From IMG/VR virus record IMGVR_UViG_3300021961_000298, positions 1 through 35,594 of that record: a DNA stretch of 35,594 nt; one strand, written 5' to 3'. This DNA is from a virus. Made by a program: the position numbers and the translations under genes. The notes beneath the pieces are model-generated. The model was given only the letters and a program-made list of their open reading frames with translations. It made no database searches and was not told the DNA's origin. Positions within the stretch are counted from its first letter, which is position 1; the number at the start of each line of letters is the position of its first letter. Positions 12,545 to 27,013 of this stretch are shown piece by piece.

Positions 12545-13120
12545 ATGAGCAATCTCTCACTTCCCGCCGACACATTCAATATTTTTCCGCTTGACCCGAC
12601 CAATCATGTCATGCAGTTTTCACGACTGCCCATGACAACATTTGTGGTGCAGGAAGTAAGTCTGCCCGGTGTGACTGCACGGCCCTCAACCGTCAATGGG
12701 CCCGGCATGATGATACATCACCTCGCAGACAAACTCGTGTATGAACCGCTGACGGTCACGTTTATGATGGACGAAGAACTGCGCGCCTGGCGCGAACTCT
12801 ATGCGTGGTTACTGGGAGCGACGGGTGGATATGACCGCAGCGTTATTGTGGCCGAATTTATCGACGAACAGATCAATTATGTCTGGCCAGAAAAAGCCCA
12901 ATATCGTCAGGATATGGCCGCTCGCACGACTGCCGCGCTCACGATTATCAACCCCGCCAAAATTCCGATGTTGCGGGTCGTGTTCAACAATCTCTATATT
13001 ACAGGGCTGAGTGCGTTGTCGTTCTCGACCAAAGAAACCGATACGATTTCGAGCACGATGAGTTGCACCGCCACGTTTGAGTATGATTGGTATTCGGTCG
13101 TGGAATATCGGCGCGCGTAA
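12545..13120 (+). CDS. Tail tube-fold virion protein (third gp19-like protein)
   Basis: The protein is 191 aa. It has the pattern of gp19-fold phage tail proteins: FSRLPMTTFVVQEVSLPGVTA, then DKLVYEPLTVTFMMDEELRAWRELYAWLLG, MLRVVFNNLYITGLSALSFSTKE and a C-terminal SCTATFEYDWYSVV strand. Similarity to the two gp19 genes upstream is in layout more than in residues. It may form a ring at the tail end or baseplate. The start is fixed by the abutting promoter motif; initiation may be leaderless. Confidence 0.7.
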   Translation: MSNLSLPADTFNIFPLDPTNHVMQFSRLPMTTFVVQEVSLPGVTARPSTVNGPGMMIHHLADKLVYEPLTVTFMMDEELRAWRELYAWLLGATGGYDRSVIVAEFIDEQINYVWPEKAQYRQDMAARTTAALTIINPAKIPMLRVVFNNLYITGLSALSFSTKETDTISSTMSCTATFEYDWYSVVEYRRA

Positions 13121-13179
13121 CACACGATCAATGCCGGCATTTGTATGCGGCAATACTTGTCAATTCATAAGTAATAGGA

Positions 13180-13185
13180 TATACT
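13180..13185 (+). promoter_or_regulatory. Sigma70-type -10 box TATACT before the lipoprotein gene
   Basis: GGATATACT stands 7 bases before the ATG at 13193. A start 7 bases after the -10 box would place the transcript at the start codon. No convincing -35 is visible. Confidence 0.45.
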
Positions 13186-13192
13186 CGCACAT

Positions 13193-13537
13193 ATGAAAAA
13201 GTTGTGTATTGTCGCCATCCTATTCGTCGTATCAGCAACCCTCACGGGGTGTGCGTCTGTGGGTGCAACCATGCGAGGCGCCCTCCACGGGGCCGGCACT
13301 GGTGCCATTATTGGGGCGGCCGTAGGAGCGGTGACTGCCACCGATGCCGAAATATATGCCCCAGTGATGTTCCCGTATAGTTACATTGACTATGGGGAGT
13401 ACGCGAACTCCAGATACGCCGTACGATACCCGTCATGCCGGTTTATACCCCCAACACCCGTGTACTATCCCGATGGCACAATACTGTGGATGACGCCTCC
13501 CACCGACCCACGATGCTATATGAGAACACCACGGTAA
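13193..13537 (+). CDS. Small lipoprotein with glycine-zipper segment
   Basis: The protein is 114 aa. It has a lipoprotein signal peptide: MKK, a hydrophobic core (LCIVAILFVVSATL) and a lipobox LTGC with the acceptor Cys at residue 19. Residues about 27-48 (MRGALHGAGTGAIIGAAVGAV) are a Gly-zipper like those in small bacterial envelope lipoproteins. The rest is Tyr/Pro rich (YSYIDYGEY..., PTPVYYPDGT). It is probably anchored in the host envelope. Possible roles are superinfection exclusion or lysis help, but nothing in the sequence decides this. It may be of bacterial origin. A -10 box lies 7 bases before the ATG. Confidence 0.75.
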   Translation: MKKLCIVAILFVVSATLTGCASVGATMRGALHGAGTGAIIGAAVGAVTATDAEIYAPVMFPYSYIDYGEYANSRYAVRYPSCRFIPPTPVYYPDGTILWMTPPTDPRCYMRTPR

Positions 13538-13564
13538 ACATGCTATCCAATGGTCATACTGTGA

Positions 13565-15434: not shown

Positions 15435-16325
15435 ATGTCTGCTATTATTTATCTCCTCACCAATACCGTCAACGGAAAACAATATGTGGGACAGACCAGT
15501 TATGGGCTGGAAAAGCGGTGGCGCGAGCATTGCCAGGATGCTCGACGTGGGTTCCCGCGATACCTGTATAACGCCATCCGTAAATACGGCCCTGATGCGT
15601 TTACTTACGAGATATTGGAGCACACGACCATCGAGGATGTGAATGCTCGTGAAACCTATTGGATATCGGAACTGAAGACATTGGAGCACGGCTACAATAT
15701 GACGGAGGGCGGGGGAGGCGTGAGAGGATGGGTGCCGAGTGAAGATACACGCGCGAAGATGAGCGCGGCCAAGACTGGCAAGACCTTCTCGGCCGAGACC
15801 CGAGCGAAGTTGCGTGCGGCCTTGACTGGCAAGACCCACTCCGCAGAGACACGAGCGAAGATGAGTGCGGCTCGGTCGGGAGAGAACAATCCGAACTATG
15901 GCAAGACCCACTCAGCCGAAACCCGAGCGAAACTGAGCGCGGCGAATATTGGCAAGAAACTCTCAGCCAAAACCCGAGCGAAGATGCGTGCGGCCCTGTC
16001 GGGAGAGAACAATCCGTTCTATGGCAAGACCCACTCAGCCGAAACCCGAGCGAAGTTGCGTGCGGCCCTGTCGGGAGAGAACCATCCGAACTATGGCAAG
16101 ACCCACTCAGCCGAAACCCGAGCGAAGATGCGTGCGGCCCAGACTGGCAAGACCTTCTCAGCCGAGACCCGAGCGAAGTTGCGTGCGGCCAAGTCGGGAG
16201 AGAACAATCCGTTCTATGGCAAGAAACTCTCCCCCGAATCCATCGCCAAACGCACCGCCACTCGCAAACTCCGTGCTCGTATGAAACGCATTGTTGCCCC
16301 CGAGGCCAGCATCTATGTCTGCTGA
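15435..16325 (+). CDS. GIY-YIG homing endonuclease with NUMOD3 array
   Basis: The protein is 296 aa. The N-terminal nuclease has IIYLL (GIY position, Tyr6), QYVGQ (YIG position, Tyr17), Arg28 in LEKRWREH and the metal-binding Glu73 in ARETYWI. From residue 102 a run of nine NUMOD3-like units fills nearly all of the rest and ends in a basic tail. ATG at 15435 is chosen over GTG at 15423 because GGAGG lies 5 bases before it and the domain starts there. The gene overlaps the start of uvsW by 11 bases, so uvsW translation may be coupled to it. Confidence 0.92.
15738..16271 (+). repeat. NUMOD3 tandem array (17- and 24-residue units)
   Basis: Eight units beginning S-A/E-x-TRAK and one degenerate last unit are arranged head to tail. 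Short units are 17 residues (51 bp). Long ones add ENNPxYG to reach 24 residues (72 bp). The order is short, short, long, short, long, long, short, long, then the degenerate end. Confidence 0.9.
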
Positions 16326-17655
16326 CATTACTATCGCCCCGCTGAATCATTCGAGAACCTACGTCTTTGCGGATGAAGGTATCACAAAGGAAATCGGCGA
16401 ACATTTCTCATTCGAAGTGCCCAGTGCCAAGTTCATGATCGCGTACAAACGTCGGCACTGGGATGGTCGCGTACGGTTATTTCATAAGCCCACATCCACC
16501 CTCCCCACCGGCCTCATTCCGCGATTGCTCCGCTTTGCGGGGAAGCAGGGCTATAGCGTCCATAACAAGCTCGCCGACTACCGCACCGACTGGTCATCGT
16601 TTGATACGGACGCCCTCCTCGCCAAATATCCAGTCGCCCACGACATTCGGGACTACCAGAAAGCGGCGATTACGTGGGCGCTGCATCATCAACGCGGAGT
16701 GCTGCTGTCACCCACCGCCAGCGGAAAATCCCTCATTCTCTACTATCTCATCCGTCAACGGATGTCGATGGGGCCCGTATTACTCATCGTGCCATCCATC
16801 TCTCTCGTCTCACAGATGGTGTCGGATTTTATTACATACGGATGGACGGACGCCGACGATTACATTCATAAGATTACGGGTGGAGTCGATAAACATACGA
16901 CGAAGCCCTGCGTCGTATCGACGTGGCAATCCATTCATCGTTTGCCAGAATCATGGTTCTATAGATTTACTGCGGTCTTTGGGGATGAAGCCCATACGTT
17001 CAAGGCGGAGAGTTTACAGTCCATTATGGCCGCGGTTCCTCACTGCGTGTTCCGTATTGGGTGCACCGGAACGCTTGATGATGCGAAAGCCAATAGTTTG
17101 ACGGTGGAATCCGCGTTCGGCCCCGCCCATCGTGTCGCCCGCACCGCTGACCTTCAGACACAGGGACATCTTACACCCATCAAAATCCAAGGCCACTTTC
17201 TACAATACGGCAAACACGATAAGTGGATGCTCAAAGAACACCATCGAAAGTATACCGAAGAAATGGACTACTTGGTACAGCATCCATCGAGAATGCGGTG
17301 GTTAGTCGATTTTTGCTCACAACTGTCGGGAAACGTCCTCATTTTATATCAGTATGTGGAAAAGCACGGAGTGCCGCTTTATCATGCGCTTCGAGAAAAA
17401 TTTGGCATTAATCGACCCGTGTATTTCGTATCAGGAGATGTCGATGGCGACCAGCGAGAACGCGTCAGGGCGCTCCTAGAAGCGTCAGAACACACCATCC
17501 TATCCTTCGGTGCGGTCGAGATTCGGTGCACGCCAGACGAGCGTATACCGCTGACAGACGGGTTCACCAAAGCCGCACACGAAATTACCGTCGAGGATGA
17601 CGTGGATGACCGCTGGATTACTGCTAATAGTAGCGGAAGTGGCATTCCTAAATAA
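16315..17655 (+). CDS. uvsW: UvsW helicase, N-terminal part of a split gene
   Basis: UvsW is the T4 superfamily 2 helicase for branch migration and fork regression. This part is 446 aa. It has an N-terminal DNA-binding region (EVPSAKFMIAYKRRHWDGRVRLF), motif I SPTASGKS (132-139), motif II DEAH (224-227), motif III TGT (251-253) and most of the second RecA domain up to ILSFG (395-399). Helicase similarity stops there, inside motif V. Residues 400-446 are foreign: VEIRCTPDERIPLTDGF and what follows look like the block B region of an intein/Hint domain, with Glu where the TxxH histidine should be. The missing end, from TLSTG, lies at 19604-19899. ATG at 16315 overlaps the GIY-YIG stop. Confidence 0.93.
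   Translation: MSADITIAPLNHSRTYVFADEGITKEIGEHFSFEVPSAKFMIAYKRRHWDGRVRLFHKPTSTLPTGLIPRLLRFAGKQGYSVHNKLADYRTDWSSFDTDALLAKYPVAHDIRDYQKAAITWALHHQRGVLLSPTASGKSLILYYLIRQRMSMGPVLLIVPSISLVSQMVSDFITYGWTDADDYIHKITGGVDKHTTKPCVVSTWQSIHRLPESWFYRFTAVFGDEAHTFKAESLQSIMAAVPHCVFRIGCTGTLDDAKANSLTVESAFGPAHRVARTADLQTQGHLTPIKIQGHFLQYGKHDKWMLKEHHRKYTEEMDYLVQHPSRMRWLVDFCSQLSGNVLILYQYVEKHGVPLYHALREKFGINRPVYFVSGDVDGDQRERVRALLEASEHTILSFGAVEIRCTPDERIPLTDGFTKAAHEITVEDDVDDRWITANSSGSGIPK
17648..17654 (+). promoter_or_regulatory. Late promoter motif CTAAATA inside the uvsW insertion
   Basis: CTAAATA overlaps the stop codon of the uvsW N-terminal frame, 57 bases before the ATG of the virion gene. A short GGGGA/TCCCC hairpin (17668-17682) lies between, and AAGGAG precedes the ATG. 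Confidence 0.55.
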
Positions 17656-17711
17656 CAGTGCGGGGAAATGTATCCCCACAGGACTAACTTTTAGACATAA
17701 GGAGCCTTCTC

Positions 17712-18533
17712 ATGGCACAAAGAATGTGGGGAACCGTTGACCGTGCGAACGACAGCCCGATTTGGGCGACGGCGCAGGTCAATAAGACATCGAATAGCGT
17801 CAACCAAGCGGCACTGTATAACAACACCACGGCGGATGCGTACGTGACGGGTGCGACCATCGGCACCTTCGGCGTCTCACGCGCCGAAATGTCGGATGCC
17901 GGTATCGGACAAGTTGCGAGTGTGACGGTTTCGACCGCAGGGTCGGGCTTCACTGTGCGTCCTACCGTGTCCTTCGCGGGGGGTGGACAGAGCGCGGCGG
18001 GTGCGACCGCTACGGCCACGGCCAAGGTGGTCAGTGCGACCATCACGGACGGCGGCACGAATTATGCACCGGGCGATGTGGTTCAGATTAACACGACGGG
18101 CGCAGCGGGTGCGACGGTTGCCGCAACGTTCAATGTCGCGACGGTCAATGCGGCGGCGAGTAACACCGTATTAACGCTGACCATCAACACCGCAGGCTCC
18201 TTCACCACGCTTCCGACCACGATCGTAGGAAACGAAACCACAGCGGTCACGGGTGCGGGTACCGGACTGGACGTGACTCTGTCCTTCGGGGTCAACGACG
18301 TGACGGTGACGGCGAACGGCACCAACTACACATCAGCACCCACTGTGACGTTCGGTGGTGCCGGTGGTAGTGGTGCGACGGCCACCGCGGCGCTTCGCTC
18401 GGAACAGAGCGGCGTGACCTCGGCGGGTTGGGTGTTGCGTAAAGCGTTCGGAAGCCGTGTGCAATACGAGACTCTTGTTGCCAGCAAGAACATCAGCGGC
18501 GACGGATCAGACGACGCGAAGTTGCCCGAGTAA
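17712..18533 (+). CDS. Virion structural protein, located inside uvsW
   Basis: The protein is 273 aa. It starts AQRMWGTVDRANDSPIWATA and ends with AGWVLRKAFGSRVQYETLVASKNI then GDGSDD. This frame of conserved ends is one I associate with structural proteins of T4-like cyanophages and relatives. The middle is made of Gly/Thr/Ala modules of the type GSGFTVRPTVSFAGGG and GTNYTSAPTVTFGGAG, short beta repeats common in phage surface proteins. It has its own late promoter motif, AAGGAG ribosome site and a strong terminator, so it is an independent unit. Its place inside the split uvsW is odd; codon use is like the other structural genes. Confidence 0.85.
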   Translation: MAQRMWGTVDRANDSPIWATAQVNKTSNSVNQAALYNNTTADAYVTGATIGTFGVSRAEMSDAGIGQVASVTVSTAGSGFTVRPTVSFAGGGQSAAGATATATAKVVSATITDGGTNYAPGDVVQINTTGAAGATVAATFNVATVNAAASNTVLTLTINTAGSFTTLPTTIVGNETTAVTGAGTGLDVTLSFGVNDVTVTANGTNYTSAPTVTFGGAGGSGATATAALRSEQSGVTSAGWVLRKAFGSRVQYETLVASKNISGDGSDDAKLPE

Positions 18534-18558
18534 CATATTCGCTCTTCGCGAATCACGA

Positions 18559-18596
18559 AAGGGGAGGCCTGCACGGGTCTCCCCTTTTTTATTTTA
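18559..18596 (+). terminator. Strong intrinsic terminator after the virion gene in the insertion
   Basis: An 11-bp stem, 18559-18569 with 18576-18586 (one G-T pair) round a 6-base loop, is followed by a T-rich tract TTTTTTATTTTAT. Confidence 0.92.
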
Positions 18597-18624
18597 TGTA
18601 AGTGAATGTAGACGCCAGTGATAT

Positions 18625-18632
18625 TATAAATA
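18625..18632 (+). promoter_or_regulatory. Perfect T4 late promoter TATAAATA before the HNH gene
   Basis: TATAAATA ends 5 bases before an in-frame GTG at 18638. It is the only full match to the T4 consensus noticed in the window and lies in AT-rich DNA of the endonuclease. Confidence 0.6.
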
Positions 18633-18637
18633 CTACT

Positions 18638-19555
18638 GTGGTCAATATAACATCTTACTTTATCAATAAACTTGGACCTCCGGTTGATTTGGATATTCTC
18701 AATGAATATCTTTCCCTCTGTGTGGAAACAGATGATGCCGGGTATACGGAGATTCATCACATTCTTCCACAATCGTTATTTCCTGAACACGCTAATGTTG
18801 ATTGGAATAAGGTAAGACTTTCATATCATTCCCATTGTTTGGCTCATGAGTTGTTATGGTGTGCGTATCCTATGGTATCTTCATTCTGGCGCCCATTGAA
18901 CTATATGAAGTCCCAGAATACCGAAATGCGGGCAAAATTCGCAGAATCTATGCGTCAATACTCAAACGCACGGTGGTTGGCAATAAAATCCGACCCTGAA
19001 AAAATGCGAGAATGGTCCGAAAGTAAACGACAGATGATGTTGGAGCGAATGCAAAAAGATCATCCAGCATATAAAGATATGTGTGCCAAAATTATCGCTC
19101 ACTACAAGACAGACCCCAATGCTCGCCATATTAGGTCGGTTGCGTCAAAGGAAATGTGGAAAGACCCCAAGATGCGGGAAAAGATTGTCTCCGGTATGCG
19201 ACAGATGCGAAATGGCCCCGAAGGAAAAAAATTGAATGATCGTGTGAAACAAATAATGAAGCAAAAATACCAAGATGAGGTATACTATGTGCAACACAAG
19301 GCACGTATGATTGAGGTAAATGCTCGTCAAGACAAAAAAGATAAGAATAGGCAAACTATATTAGAAAAATGGAAAGACCCAGAGTTTGCCGCCTTGATGA
19401 GACAAAAGATTTCAGATGGACGGAAAAATAGAAAATCATCATCTTCCGCTATGAAAGCATTATGGGCGGATCCAGTGAGGAAGGCCGAAATGCTAGAACG
19501 AAGAAAAAATACAAGGAAGAAAAAGAAGATTGAGGCGATTGATGAAACCAACTAG
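18638..19555 (+). CDS. HNH homing endonuclease inside uvsW
   Basis: The protein is 305 aa from GTG 18638 (an earlier in-frame GTG is at 18602). The HNH-type site is EIHHILPQSLFPEHANVDWN followed by VRLSYHSHCLAHELL, giving His-His, Asn and His. From about residue 100 it is Lys/Arg rich with repeated short helices of the form MKALWADPVRKAEML and SKEMWKDPKMREKI, a DNA-binding repeat type seen in phage endonucleases. It is far more AT-rich than its neighbours, a sign of recent arrival. The perfect late promoter 5 bases upstream favours the GTG at 18638 and implies a leaderless mRNA. It is the likely mover of the uvsW insertion. Confidence 0.85.
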   Translation: MVNITSYFINKLGPPVDLDILNEYLSLCVETDDAGYTEIHHILPQSLFPEHANVDWNKVRLSYHSHCLAHELLWCAYPMVSSFWRPLNYMKSQNTEMRAKFAESMRQYSNARWLAIKSDPEKMREWSESKRQMMLERMQKDHPAYKDMCAKIIAHYKTDPNARHIRSVASKEMWKDPKMREKIVSGMRQMRNGPEGKKLNDRVKQIMKQKYQDEVYYVQHKARMIEVNARQDKKDKNRQTILEKWKDPEFAALMRQKISDGRKNRKSSSSAMKALWADPVRKAEMLERRKNTRKKKKIEAIDETN

Positions 19556-19576
19556 TGTACAGAAAGAGAAGGTGCG

Positions 19577-19598
19577 GGACGCGATTCTAGTCGCGTCC
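19577..19598 (+). other. Perfect 8-bp hairpin at the 3' edge of the uvsW insertion
   Basis: GGACGCGA (19577-19584) pairs with TCGCGTCC (19591-19598) round TTCTAG, 5 bases before the deduced 3' junction. The loop holds the in-frame TAG (19588-19590) that closes the frame upstream of the uvsW 3' part. No T-run follows. Confidence 0.6.
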
Positions 19599-19611
19599 TA
19601 TTGACGGTACT

Positions 19612-19899
19612 TTGAGTACCGGCGTCAATATTAAGCGCCTGCATCATATTGTATTTGCATCACCCTCAAAAAGCCGCTATCGCGTGTTGCAGTCTATTGG
19701 TCGTGGGTTGCGCCTACACAGTTCGAAAAAAATCGTGTATGTGCATGATATCGTGGACGATGCACACCAGAAGTCGTATGTAAACTACGCATATAAACAT
19801 TGGGCACATCGTGCGAAGTTTTATCAGGAAGAACAGTTTCCGATGGAACTCTATGCCCATTCACTAGAGGCGCTCCCGCATGGAACACTCGCCCAATAA
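19612..19899 (+). CDS. uvsW: UvsW helicase, C-terminal part of a split gene
   Basis: Ninety-five residues from TTG 19612 complete UvsW. STGVNIKRLHHIVFASPSKSR is the rest of motif V, and LQSIGRGLRL is motif VI with the arginine finger. The C-terminal helices (VYVHDIVDDAHQKSYVNYAYKHW) match the T4 end. Similarity runs from about 19604. An in-frame TAG at 19588 blocks read-through from the insertion. There is no good start codon or ribosome site: only TTG 19612 or ATT 19600. That suggests joining to the N-terminal part by splicing, or a dead fragment. A fragment with motif VI alone cannot act as a helicase unless it complements the N-terminal part. Confidence 0.88.
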   Translation: MSTGVNIKRLHHIVFASPSKSRYRVLQSIGRGLRLHSSKKIVYVHDIVDDAHQKSYVNYAYKHWAHRAKFYQEEQFPMELYAHSLEALPHGTLAQ

Positions 19900-20371
19900 T
19901 ACCGACCTCGACGCCGTATTCAATGGCATTCCTGTTATTGTTCGCCTCATTACCGGCGACGACATTATTTGCGTATTATATCAACGAACGAATGATGCTG
20001 ATGATCCCCGCATGTTTATGGAGCGACCGCTTCGTCTTCTCGTGGCCGAAATAGGGATCGAACCCGCGGCCGAGACCACCATAGGAAAAACGAATACGCT
20101 GTATTCTAAAGTTCGCACGCGGTTCGACCGTTGGATTCCAATGACCGATGCCACTATGTTTCCTGTTTTTCCCGACCACATCGTCTCCATTGCTCCGATT
20201 GCCGATCAATATGTGCATCCGTATATGGAGTGGGCCGACCAACTCTATCAATACCCCGAGGAGTTGGTATCGCCTCAACTCGAAAAACAGGCCCCAAGCA
20301 CAGACGAGCTTCGAAAAACATACATTGATTTTTTGCTCCACAATTTTAATCCCAAAGGAAAACCCAATTAA
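19880..20371 (+). CDS. Hypothetical protein with Sm-like N-terminal region
   Basis: The protein is 163 aa. The N-terminal 55 residues (VFNGIPVIVRLITGDDIICVLYQRTN and then ERPLRLLV) have the five-strand rhythm of Sm-like folds, with the G-D-D-I-I turn after the second strand. The middle (VRTRFDRWIPMTDATMFPVFPDHIVSIAPIAD) adds strands, and the C-terminus is helical (TDELRKTYIDFLLHNF). I do not recognise a function. It overlaps the uvsW end by 20 bases with AGAGG before its ATG, and its stop overlaps the gp55 start, so it is translated with both. An RNA- or polymerase-linked role is possible but unproven. Confidence 0.75.
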   Translation: MEHSPNNTDLDAVFNGIPVIVRLITGDDIICVLYQRTNDADDPRMFMERPLRLLVAEIGIEPAAETTIGKTNTLYSKVRTRFDRWIPMTDATMFPVFPDHIVSIAPIADQYVHPYMEWADQLYQYPEELVSPQLEKQAPSTDELRKTYIDFLLHNFNPKGKPN

Positions 20372-25390: not shown

Positions 25391-27013
25391 ACCGTGAAAC
25401 CACTGACCATTCCTGACCATTATACGTCCTGCCATTACACGACCAACCGTGCGTTGCTGAATAATCCCTCGGTGAATGCCACCTTTGACGAGGTGTTGCG
25501 TATGAACGATGCTGACTGGATTGCGTGGTTGGAGCGCGTGCGTCGTGCGGTATTGACGGCATGGAATACCGAGAATGTGCCGCCGCGCATCGGTCTCTCG
25601 GATGCGGAGATTGCCGACCAGTGGGATCGGTTTGTGGGTATGGACGCCTCAAAGTCGTGGGTGGTGTGCGATGATGGCGTCGAAGCCCTCTCCGTCCCGC
25701 CCGCGAGCCACAGTGTCATCTCGCAGTGGTTCCCGACCATGATGAAAACGCGCATCACCTATTCTGATAAGAAGGAAGGGTTGAGCATCTACGATATGTT
25801 TGCGGATGATGCGGTGTGGGCCCGCTATCGGAACTCGTATGCGACGCGACATTTCCGTCGTGATAGTTTCTTTGCGTATAGTCGTGCGATTCATACACAC
25901 GAGTCCGTGCCTGGCACCGCTGTGGTGCCGACGACCGCGTACGAATATCTGGTGACCCTCCGCGATCATCTTGCGAATGCGCCTAATGATTTGTTTGGTG
26001 GTGCCACCGCCGCGACCCACGGCGTGTGGTTGTCGCCCGCGATTGCCGATGAGGACTATGACGGCTACAGCACCAACATCAAAGACCGCTCCATCTGGAC
26101 GGTGACGCGAGACGAAGCCGTCGCATGGAAAGCGAGTGGCGCGTTTCCGTCGCATTGGTTCACCGCTGTGGATGCGTCACAAACCAAGAAATCACACTAC
26201 ATGGTGCGTCTCTATGAAACCGATATGCGTATCTTCCCGCACGGGTTTCGCAGTTTCCGTATCAGCATGTGTCAGTATGCGGTCAACTGGCCAGCAGTCG
26301 CCGCTCGTGCGTTATATGAACGCTATACCACGGGCATCAAGAATCCCGTTATTTGGGATCCGAGCAGCGGCTGGGCGGGTCGATTGGCCGGTGCGATTAC
26401 GTCGAGGACAAAGCCGACGTATATCGGTTGCGATCCCAACACGGATCATCTCTGGTCGGATGCGGACGGGACGGTGCATAGTAAGTATACCGAGATTGCG
26501 GCGTATCATGCGAGTCGGAGTGCCTTGGATGCGCCCCCGAAGGTGGTGTTTTTTCCGTGTGGGTCTGAGGTAATGAAAGACCAGCCGGCGTTTCAGGAAT
26601 ACAAAGGCAAGGTGGATGTCGTGTTCACGTCGCCGCCGTACTGGTTTCGTGAAGTATATTCAGACGATGAAGAACAGAGTGGCCGTAAGTTTTCGGCTTT
26701 TGATGATTGGTGCGAAGGATTCCTGCGACCAACATTGGAAACGGCTGCAAAATGGTTACGCCCCGGTGGGACACTTTTGTGGAATATTGCGGACATCAAA
26801 GTTGGTGGGAAATATATTCCGTTGGAACAGCGGAGTATTGAGTATGCGACGGCGGCGGGGTTGGTGCAGGGGGATACTATCCGTCTATTGCTCGCGAACA
26901 TGCCGGGTGGGAACCGCGTGAACGAAGATGGCACCGGCACCGCGAAGAATATCTGTAAGGTAGACGGTCGGCTGATTAAGTTCGAACCGATTTTCGTGTT
27001 TAGAAAGAACTAA
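25388..27013 (+). CDS. DNA methyltransferase (amino-methyltransferase type)
   Basis: The protein is 541 aa. The catalytic half has an SAM-binding motif VIWDPSSGWAGRL (321-333), followed by YIGCDPNTDH (345-354) for ribose contact, and the catalytic motif TSPPYW (414-419), typical of enzymes that methylate the exocyclic amine of adenine or cytosine. RPGGTLLWNIADIK follows. The first 300 residues have no motif I know and may hold the target-recognition part. Similar large proteins occur in T4-like phages of cyanobacteria. It has no partner endonuclease nearby, so a solitary role such as evading host restriction is likely. Confidence 0.85.
   Translation: MTVKPLTIPDHYTSCHYTTNRALLNNPSVNATFDEVLRMNDADWIAWLERVRRAVLTAWNTENVPPRIGLSDAEIADQWDRFVGMDASKSWVVCDDGVEALSVPPASHSVISQWFPTMMKTRITYSDKKEGLSIYDMFADDAVWARYRNSYATRHFRRDSFFAYSRAIHTHESVPGTAVVPTTAYEYLVTLRDHLANAPNDLFGGATAATHGVWLSPAIADEDYDGYSTNIKDRSIWTVTRDEAVAWKASGAFPSHWFTAVDASQTKKSHYMVRLYETDMRIFPHGFRSFRISMCQYAVNWPAVAARALYERYTTGIKNPVIWDPSSGWAGRLAGAITSRTKPTYIGCDPNTDHLWSDADGTVHSKYTEIAAYHASRSALDAPPKVVFFPCGSEVMKDQPAFQEYKGKVDVVFTSPPYWFREVYSDDEEQSGRKFSAFDDWCEGFLRPTLETAAKWLRPGGTLLWNIADIKVGGKYIPLEQRSIEYATAAGLVQGDTIRLLLANMPGGNRVNEDGTGTAKNICKVDGRLIKFEPIFVFRKN

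Follow-up and report, generated by a model that had tools for sequence, protein, structure and literature searches.

The DNA-repair helicase gene uvsW is divided into two genes in the DNA of a T4-like phage (the window: the whole stretch analysed, 35,594 bases, the entire IMG/VR record IMGVR_UViG_3300021961_000298). Judged from comparison with related alleles, this is an ancient two-gene form of the UvsW helicase of superfamily 2 (SF2), whose two halves would assemble into a working enzyme. It is probable that a mobile cassette with an HNH homing endonuclease splits uvsW at motif V, and that the C-terminal half is produced by programmed ribosome bypass of 4-7 nucleotides (nt). With slightly better than even chances, such minimal bypass elements, 4-7 nt long, opening with a stop codon and driven by a single 5' hairpin, are widespread and travel with the HNH cassette into motif V of uvsW. 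The phages with the proposed element range from T4-like size up to relatives of phages of more than 600 kb. The parts of the split gene in the window are the following.

16315..17655, plus strand: N-half of uvsW (ATG 16315, own stop codon); UvsW_N and ResIII (Pfam-type domain matches) and UvsW PHROGs
17494..17652, plus strand: conserved tail of the N-half, TILSFGAVEIRCTPDERIPLTDGFTKAAHEITVEDDVDDRWITANSSGSGIPK, resembling Hint block B; seen in alignments on every split N-half examined
18602..19555, plus strand: open reading frame (ORF) of an HNH homing endonuclease, probable GTG start 18638; phrog_655 (8e-20), phrog_12434 (2e-18), conserved EHHIL..WN..H..H
19542..19601, plus strand: head of the C-half, MKPTSVQKEKVRDAILVASY; ATG 19542 with GAGG upstream, head homologues in all split alleles
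19576..19599, plus strand: RNA hairpin, stem of 10 base pairs (bp) and tetraloop, directly 5' of Tyr UAU and UGA; minimum free energy -16.9, synonymous-shuffle p<0.0005
19602..19605, plus strand: 4-nt gap TGAC, in-phase stop first, presumed bypassed; recurring junction in other alleles
19606..19899, plus strand: C-half of uvsW (stop at 19899); UvsW PHROGs 9690, 17901 and 16, GTLSTG of motif V, QSIGRGLR of motif VI

The N-half contains the UvsW_N domain and helicase motifs I and II, and corresponds to RecA1 and most of RecA2 followed by the Hint-like tail. Motifs V and VI are in the C-half, which matches PHROG 9690, the same profile as the N-half, starting at profile position 220. The interruption of uvsW at motif V, which a preliminary description of this DNA had stated, is confirmed; both parts match UvsW PHROGs. 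In the 454-amino-acid ORF read from TTG 16291 the UvsW_N/ResIII and UvsW PHROG match extends to about residue 404. The native match of the N-half ends at about 17502, at EASEHTI, and not at LSFG as previously proposed, these residues being part of the conserved tail. The AlphaFold model of the N-half has a predicted local distance difference test score (pLDDT) of 86, and its best match in the PDB is T4 UvsW (2oca, E=9.2e-28).

The preliminary description treated the region between the halves as a single insertion of 2.1 kb, whose removal (17507-19603) would restore the canonical motif V. The segment can indeed be removed in frame, and the joined sequence was arithmetically correct. However, the resulting EHTILSYGTLSTG is two residues short compared with uninterrupted uvsW; the ASxGxxSTG spacing is kept without an insertion or deletion (indel) in all 80 intact uvsW loci examined. 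Moreover, the 2.1 kb are a composite of the tail, a structural gene with its terminator, the HNH gene and the head of the C-half.

The C-half of the window starts with ATG 19542 and runs through the head to UGA, and native GTLSTG resumes 4 nt later, at 19606. The preliminary description had overlooked this true start together with the stop-codon gap and the hairpin preceding it. The 3' part had been described as having an upstream in-frame stop and no good start; the close stop upstream of TLSTG in the +1 frame is confirmed, but a start is provided by ATG 19542 in another frame. At least 20 metagenomic contigs contain gaps of 4, 6 or 7 nt at the same Tyr/Gly junction of motif V. The 4-nt form TAT-TGAC-GG is also present in L101, L104, L106, L107, L108, L112-L116 and L125, and the longer gaps in L128, L132 and L213-L229 (7 nt) and L219 (6 nt). 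A wider pattern search, allowing any insert of 1-31 nt between the Tyr and Gly codons, produced more uvsW gap variants, TGAGTAC, TGAGGAC, TGAGGTC, TGAGAAC, TAGGTGC and TAGTAA, and its matches outside uvsW have no such hairpin. In all uvsW gap variants a stop codon, TGA or TAG, comes first, immediately 3' of the Tyr codon and in phase with the head. The gap of L219, UAG UAA, has 6 nt and is in frame with both halves. Variation in the final triplet of the gap is least at the third position and greatest at the first, which is the reverse of coding sequence, and C is nearly constant before GG at the gap end. The presumed landing triplet pairs with tRNA-Tyr at two or more of its three positions in six of seven variants (P~0.0013, assuming uniform triplets).

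No start codon is conserved after the gap (the L108 group has an ATG in the +1 frame). Four of 13 gap alleles, the window among them, have no ATG, GTG or TTG from the preceding in-frame stop to GTxSTG, and in another five the sole candidate start is a TTG within the stem. Sequencing or assembly error was rejected as the cause of the gap, as the same junction is found in many independent contigs. Recoding of UGA to sense was rejected as well, since the frame would stay unrestored in alleles with gap lengths of 1 mod 3. A second TATTGACGG in the window, at 25551, is a chance occurrence, out of frame inside an intact ORF. The search for the gap pattern in prokaryote genomes gave six matches, none with uvsW.

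In gap alleles the last codons of the head form a stem of 10-14 bp that ends at the Tyr codon or within a few bases of it. The folding energies over 36 nt are from -16.2 to -26.7 kcal/mol in the first 13 gap alleles, with p<=0.014 for each in codon shuffles preserving the protein sequence; the same control gave p<=0.01 for seven more gap alleles. Gap-free split alleles have energies from -3.7 to -10.8, with L099 and L100 keeping a weaker hairpin, and the mean for 46 intact alleles is -3.6 (mean z 0). All 13 of these gap alleles pair at stem positions -2 to -9, and at six positions (-1, -4, -7, -9, -10, -12) there are compensatory changes between lineages that retain pairing. The pairs were counted from individual folds; MAFFT alignment failed to register the 5' arms. 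Four alleles of the window group are near-identical in the hairpin stretch and represent about one lineage, the first set of 13 comprising about seven.

Divergence estimates indicate that the C-half downstream of the gap is under strong purifying selection and that the gap is not decay. The ratio of nonsynonymous to synonymous change (dN/dS) past the gap is 0.03-0.14 among gap-bearing lineages, where computable, with synonymous sites near saturation; recent decay of the C-half was rejected on these values. Synonymous change in the head is far lower (proportion of synonymous differences 0.07-0.44 vs 0.64-0.99), as would be expected from RNA constraint, co-transfer or both.

The proposed mechanism is as follows. 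The cassette would consist of a Hint/intein-like beta module on the N-half, a free-standing HNH gene and a new start of the C-half. Ribosomes would initiate at ATG 19542, synthesize a head of about 20-26 residues to VASY, and reach the stop. The strong hairpin would then refold behind the ribosome, pushing it across the gap; the peptidyl-tRNA-Tyr would re-pair at the triplet before GGN, and translation would go on with GTxSTG, giving DAILVASYGTLSTGVNIK at the junction in the window. The product of the C-half would join the N-half to form a working UvsW. By analogy with T4 gene 60 and MobA, the gap may also disrupt the recognition site of the HNH enzyme and shield the cassette. Bypass would account for a stop that is invariant and a length that varies (6 nt included), for the restoration of motif V, and for both the 5' hairpin and the near-constant C before GG.

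Several observations weigh against this mechanism. The gap length is 1 mod 3 in six of seven variants, as a +1 frameshift would need, and in the exception, L219, the endonuclease gene is truncated. Landing and take-off codons match fully only in TGAGTAC. The hairpin is located 5' of the stop, and no stem-loop in the ribosomal A site comparable to the one in gene 60 was identified, none having been sought. The gap alleles L104, L106, L112, L113, L213 and L217 have no HNH gene. All gap alleles are from metagenomic contigs, and no isolate carrying the gap was found.

The main rival is a programmed +1 frameshift at UAU-UGA, stimulated by the hairpin. It would place one or two extra residues (D, ED, EY, EV, EN or RC) in motif V and yield DAILVASYDGTLSTGVNIK in the window. 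It would serve for the 1-mod-3 alleles, whose 4- and 7-nt gaps are one codon apart, and UGA with C next to it, as in TGAC, also makes up the +1 frameshift site of release factor 2 (RF2). On the other hand, it cannot rescue the 6-nt UAG UAA of L219, and L218 uses UAG; the pairing of tRNA-Tyr with AUU is poor, the final gap triplet varies in the manner opposite to coding sequence, and the spacing of motif V is exact in all the intact loci. On balance, this explanation seems rather unlikely. Termination followed by reinitiation at the AUU overlapping the stop (UAUUGA) is much less plausible. This AUU is in frame with GTxSTG in 1-mod-3 alleles having TAT before the gap, but the scheme fails for L219, because of the frame, and for L217 and L228, which have TAC before the gap. 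Besides, AUU is a very rare start codon, and the scheme gives no reason why the head, with its hydrophobic AILVASY strand, should be conserved. Just as improbable is that the gap alleles are broken, the C-half being a pseudogene and the helicase lost or supplied otherwise. The frame is indeed interrupted in the raw sequence, but the same junction, the stop-first rule and the covarying hairpin are observed across many diverged lineages, and the dN/dS values of 0.03-0.14 with nearly saturated synonymous sites speak against a pseudogene.

The lead option of the preliminary description, splicing of a group I or II intron out of the mRNA, now has very little credibility. It would agree with the T/G-type boundary and the in-frame joinability, and the same arrangement in Dickeya phage LIMEstone1 has been annotated as a putative intron, I-LimI (PMC3296691). 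However, no credible Rfam match, the group I covariance model included, was found in 17300-19900, either at the gathering threshold or at E<10. The smallest spacers between the halves in relatives are about 170-240 nt and protein-coding, the protein-conserved tail spans the proposed 5' splice site, the joined product is two residues short, and the segment encloses a structural gene together with the terminator of that gene. A functional split intein ligating the halves at the protein level is equally hard to credit. The tail resembles Hint block B, and in some relatives motif II of uvsW does contain a genuine split intein, but the tail has neither block A nor the nucleophile, and the head has neither the C-terminal HN nor the C/S/T +1 junction before VASY. 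The suggestion of a decayed intein holds in part: the predicted fold of the tail resembles a part of the Hint/intein domain, with weak match values, but the tail lacks the splicing residues. The third option offered, a gene split by a homing endonuclease, is supported, and its halves may complement each other as had been suggested.

The tail has 45-50 residues and the consensus xFGxxxIxVxxxxxVPLxNGxxKxAxDITxDDDVxDxW, common to other split alleles. It is modelled as a confident beta-beta-beta-beta-alpha unit, whose first strand replaces the native strand preceding motif V. For the tail alone (AlphaFold2, pLDDT 85), the nine best Foldseek matches in the PDB are inteins, hedgehog and bacterial intein-like (BIL) domains, all of them weak (E>=2.3). 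Its hhalign comparison with intein block B gave a probability of 92.7 with a single template, the L108 intein, picked after the likeness had been noticed. The tail has no meaningful match among Pfam, NCBIfam, PHROG and PDB sequences, and of these comparisons with known domains only that of the fold led to Hint. Judging by the models, it is probably an intein-derived relic kept as a cap or interface.

The closest relatives in the HNH family search are mostly at exactly the same uvsW site. Where the junction is readable, the main HNH subfamily occurs only with gap alleles; the two HNH-positive alleles without this gap, LIMEstone1 and L143, have divergent enzymes. In L219 (2105-2485) only a 3' part of the HNH gene is left, and the head, the hairpin and the UAG UAA gap are retained. 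In L101 the last codons of the HNH gene persist ahead of the C-half. A perfect T4-type late promoter motif, TATAAATA, is present in the window at 18625-18632, just 5' of the probable HNH start. The C-half of L143 (4690-4730) has a 1-nt indel in GVFSTG, in a CTTTC run, which may be an error or another decoding case.

Close relatives had been suggested as a source of an uninterrupted allele. The L082/L096 contig, 98% identical to the window, shows the same split, with the same N-half, tail and structural gene; intact uvsW alleles do exist in other phages. This contig has no HNH gene and no 4-nt gap, and its C-half is an ordinary ORF beginning MARPTSVSTCSVKNAVLVASYGTFSTG. Compared with L082, the segment 18593-19632 of the window is exchanged; this presence/absence polymorphism at a fixed site, with flank conversion, is characteristic of a homing endonuclease. 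The window also differs from L082 at 13120-13557, which suggests further mobile or recombining genes near uvsW. L097-L106, with N-halves 55-70% identical, have the layout of the window without HNH. L107, L108, L112-L116, L125, L128, L132, L138 and L143, which are more distant, mostly have a relative of the HNH gene at this site, together with the same tail in those contigs that include the N-half. The split with this tail and head is shared by Ackermannviridae of Vibrio and Dickeya (Vibrio phage 144E46.1, K469 and Dickeya phage LIMEstone1) and by many metagenomic phages. In 144E46.1 and related isolates the two halves, with homologous tail and head, overlap by ATGA. The DNA search of a phage collection with the insert of the window gave no match.

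On the tree of the N-half core the intact and split states switch at least three times, and the gap trait at least seven times (supported branches). The cores of the window and L096 are 99% identical, yet their gap states differ. Such repeated changes are the pattern expected of a mobile cassette. Motif II is interrupted in L108 (8466-11249), L125 and L218 by a split intein that is genuine and comes with a free-standing endonuclease, so uvsW has been hit at two sites.

Three other features are situated within or next to the split gene.

17712..18533, plus strand: virion structural protein gene; phrog_460 head closure (2.5e-11), baseplate/virion PHROGs, same place in L096-L106
18561..18590, plus strand: hairpin with T-run resembling an intrinsic terminator, 3' of the structural gene; read from sequence, common to L082
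15423..16325, plus strand: GIY-YIG homing endonuclease with NUMOD3 repeats; Pfam GIY-YIG (1.5e-11), NUMOD3 (1e-63), phrog_314

In the lineage of the window and in L096-L106, a structural gene with its own terminator sits between the halves of a replication helicase. In L138 (2632-3435) an additional ORF is similarly placed, following the uvsW tail and preceding the HNH gene. The GIY-YIG gene, whose NUMOD3 repeats are many, overlaps the start of uvsW and is a neighbour of the split, lying outside it; T4 segE likewise adjoins uvsW and targets it. L082 has a second, related copy of the GIY-YIG/NUMOD3 gene at 1097-1760.

The system closest to the proposed one is T4 gene 39/mobA/gene 60 with its 50-nt bypass, where an insertion carrying an HNH homing endonuclease also divides a replication gene (PMC5009743, PMC3014915, PMC11194080). 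The take-off codon of gene 60 is followed by a stop, and a stem-loop on the 5' side refolds in the wake of the ribosome (PMC11194080, PMC5009743); the gap has been proposed to protect the mobile cassette against MobA (PMC5009743). Both systems have a new downstream gene with a small non-coding gap near its start, a stop codon first in the gap, mRNA stem-loops, and a link between the gap and a homing endonuclease, with protection proposed here by analogy. The differences are that the gene is uvsW and not a topoisomerase, the gap is 4-7 nt and not 50, the take-off codon is Tyr and not Gly, one hairpin stands immediately 5' of it, the upstream half has a Hint-like tail, and the phages are very diverse. 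Bypass in gene 60 is proven, whereas in uvsW it is proposed from sequence.

Endonuclease-associated fission with both halves kept is known for nrdA/mobE and the split gene 43A/43B of Aeromonas phage Aeh1, where the products are functional (PMC2988022); these are different genes, and no stop-codon gap has been reported in them. LIMEstone1 uvsW/I-LimI (HE600015) has the split in the same position, a homologous tail, a homologous head and an HNH gene in between, but has no gap, no strong hairpin and a more distant HNH. Most likely, I-LimI (L121, ORF122-124) is not an intron but a gap-free form of this split-gene cassette. In fractured genes with split inteins the gene is also broken around a free-standing endonuclease with Hint-like sequence at the break; in uvsW the Hint-like part is fragmentary and lacks the splicing residues. 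The mobile bypassing elements of Magnusiomyces mitochondria are likewise short blocks skipped in translation and allow imperfect landing codons (PMC5009743), but they are mitochondrial, occur in many genes and have no link to a phage HNH cassette.

Programmed bypass in phages has essentially a single proven example, T4 gene 60 (PMC3014915, PMC5009743), and a review asked explicitly whether others exist in T4-related phages (PMC3014915). Among open-licence full texts there was no report of uvsW as a split gene or with a frameshift or bypass. If true, the uvsW element would add to gene 60 a second natural case of the same phenomenon, one that evolves independently and offers many natural variants for dissection. 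The alleles with and without the gap, the three gap lengths, the covarying hairpins and the known intact form would make the ribosome mechanism directly testable, as well as the proposed link between the homing endonuclease and the translational gap. The comparison also reveals a two-gene UvsW that is conserved, and it explains at least one putative intron, I-LimI, better than the annotation does.

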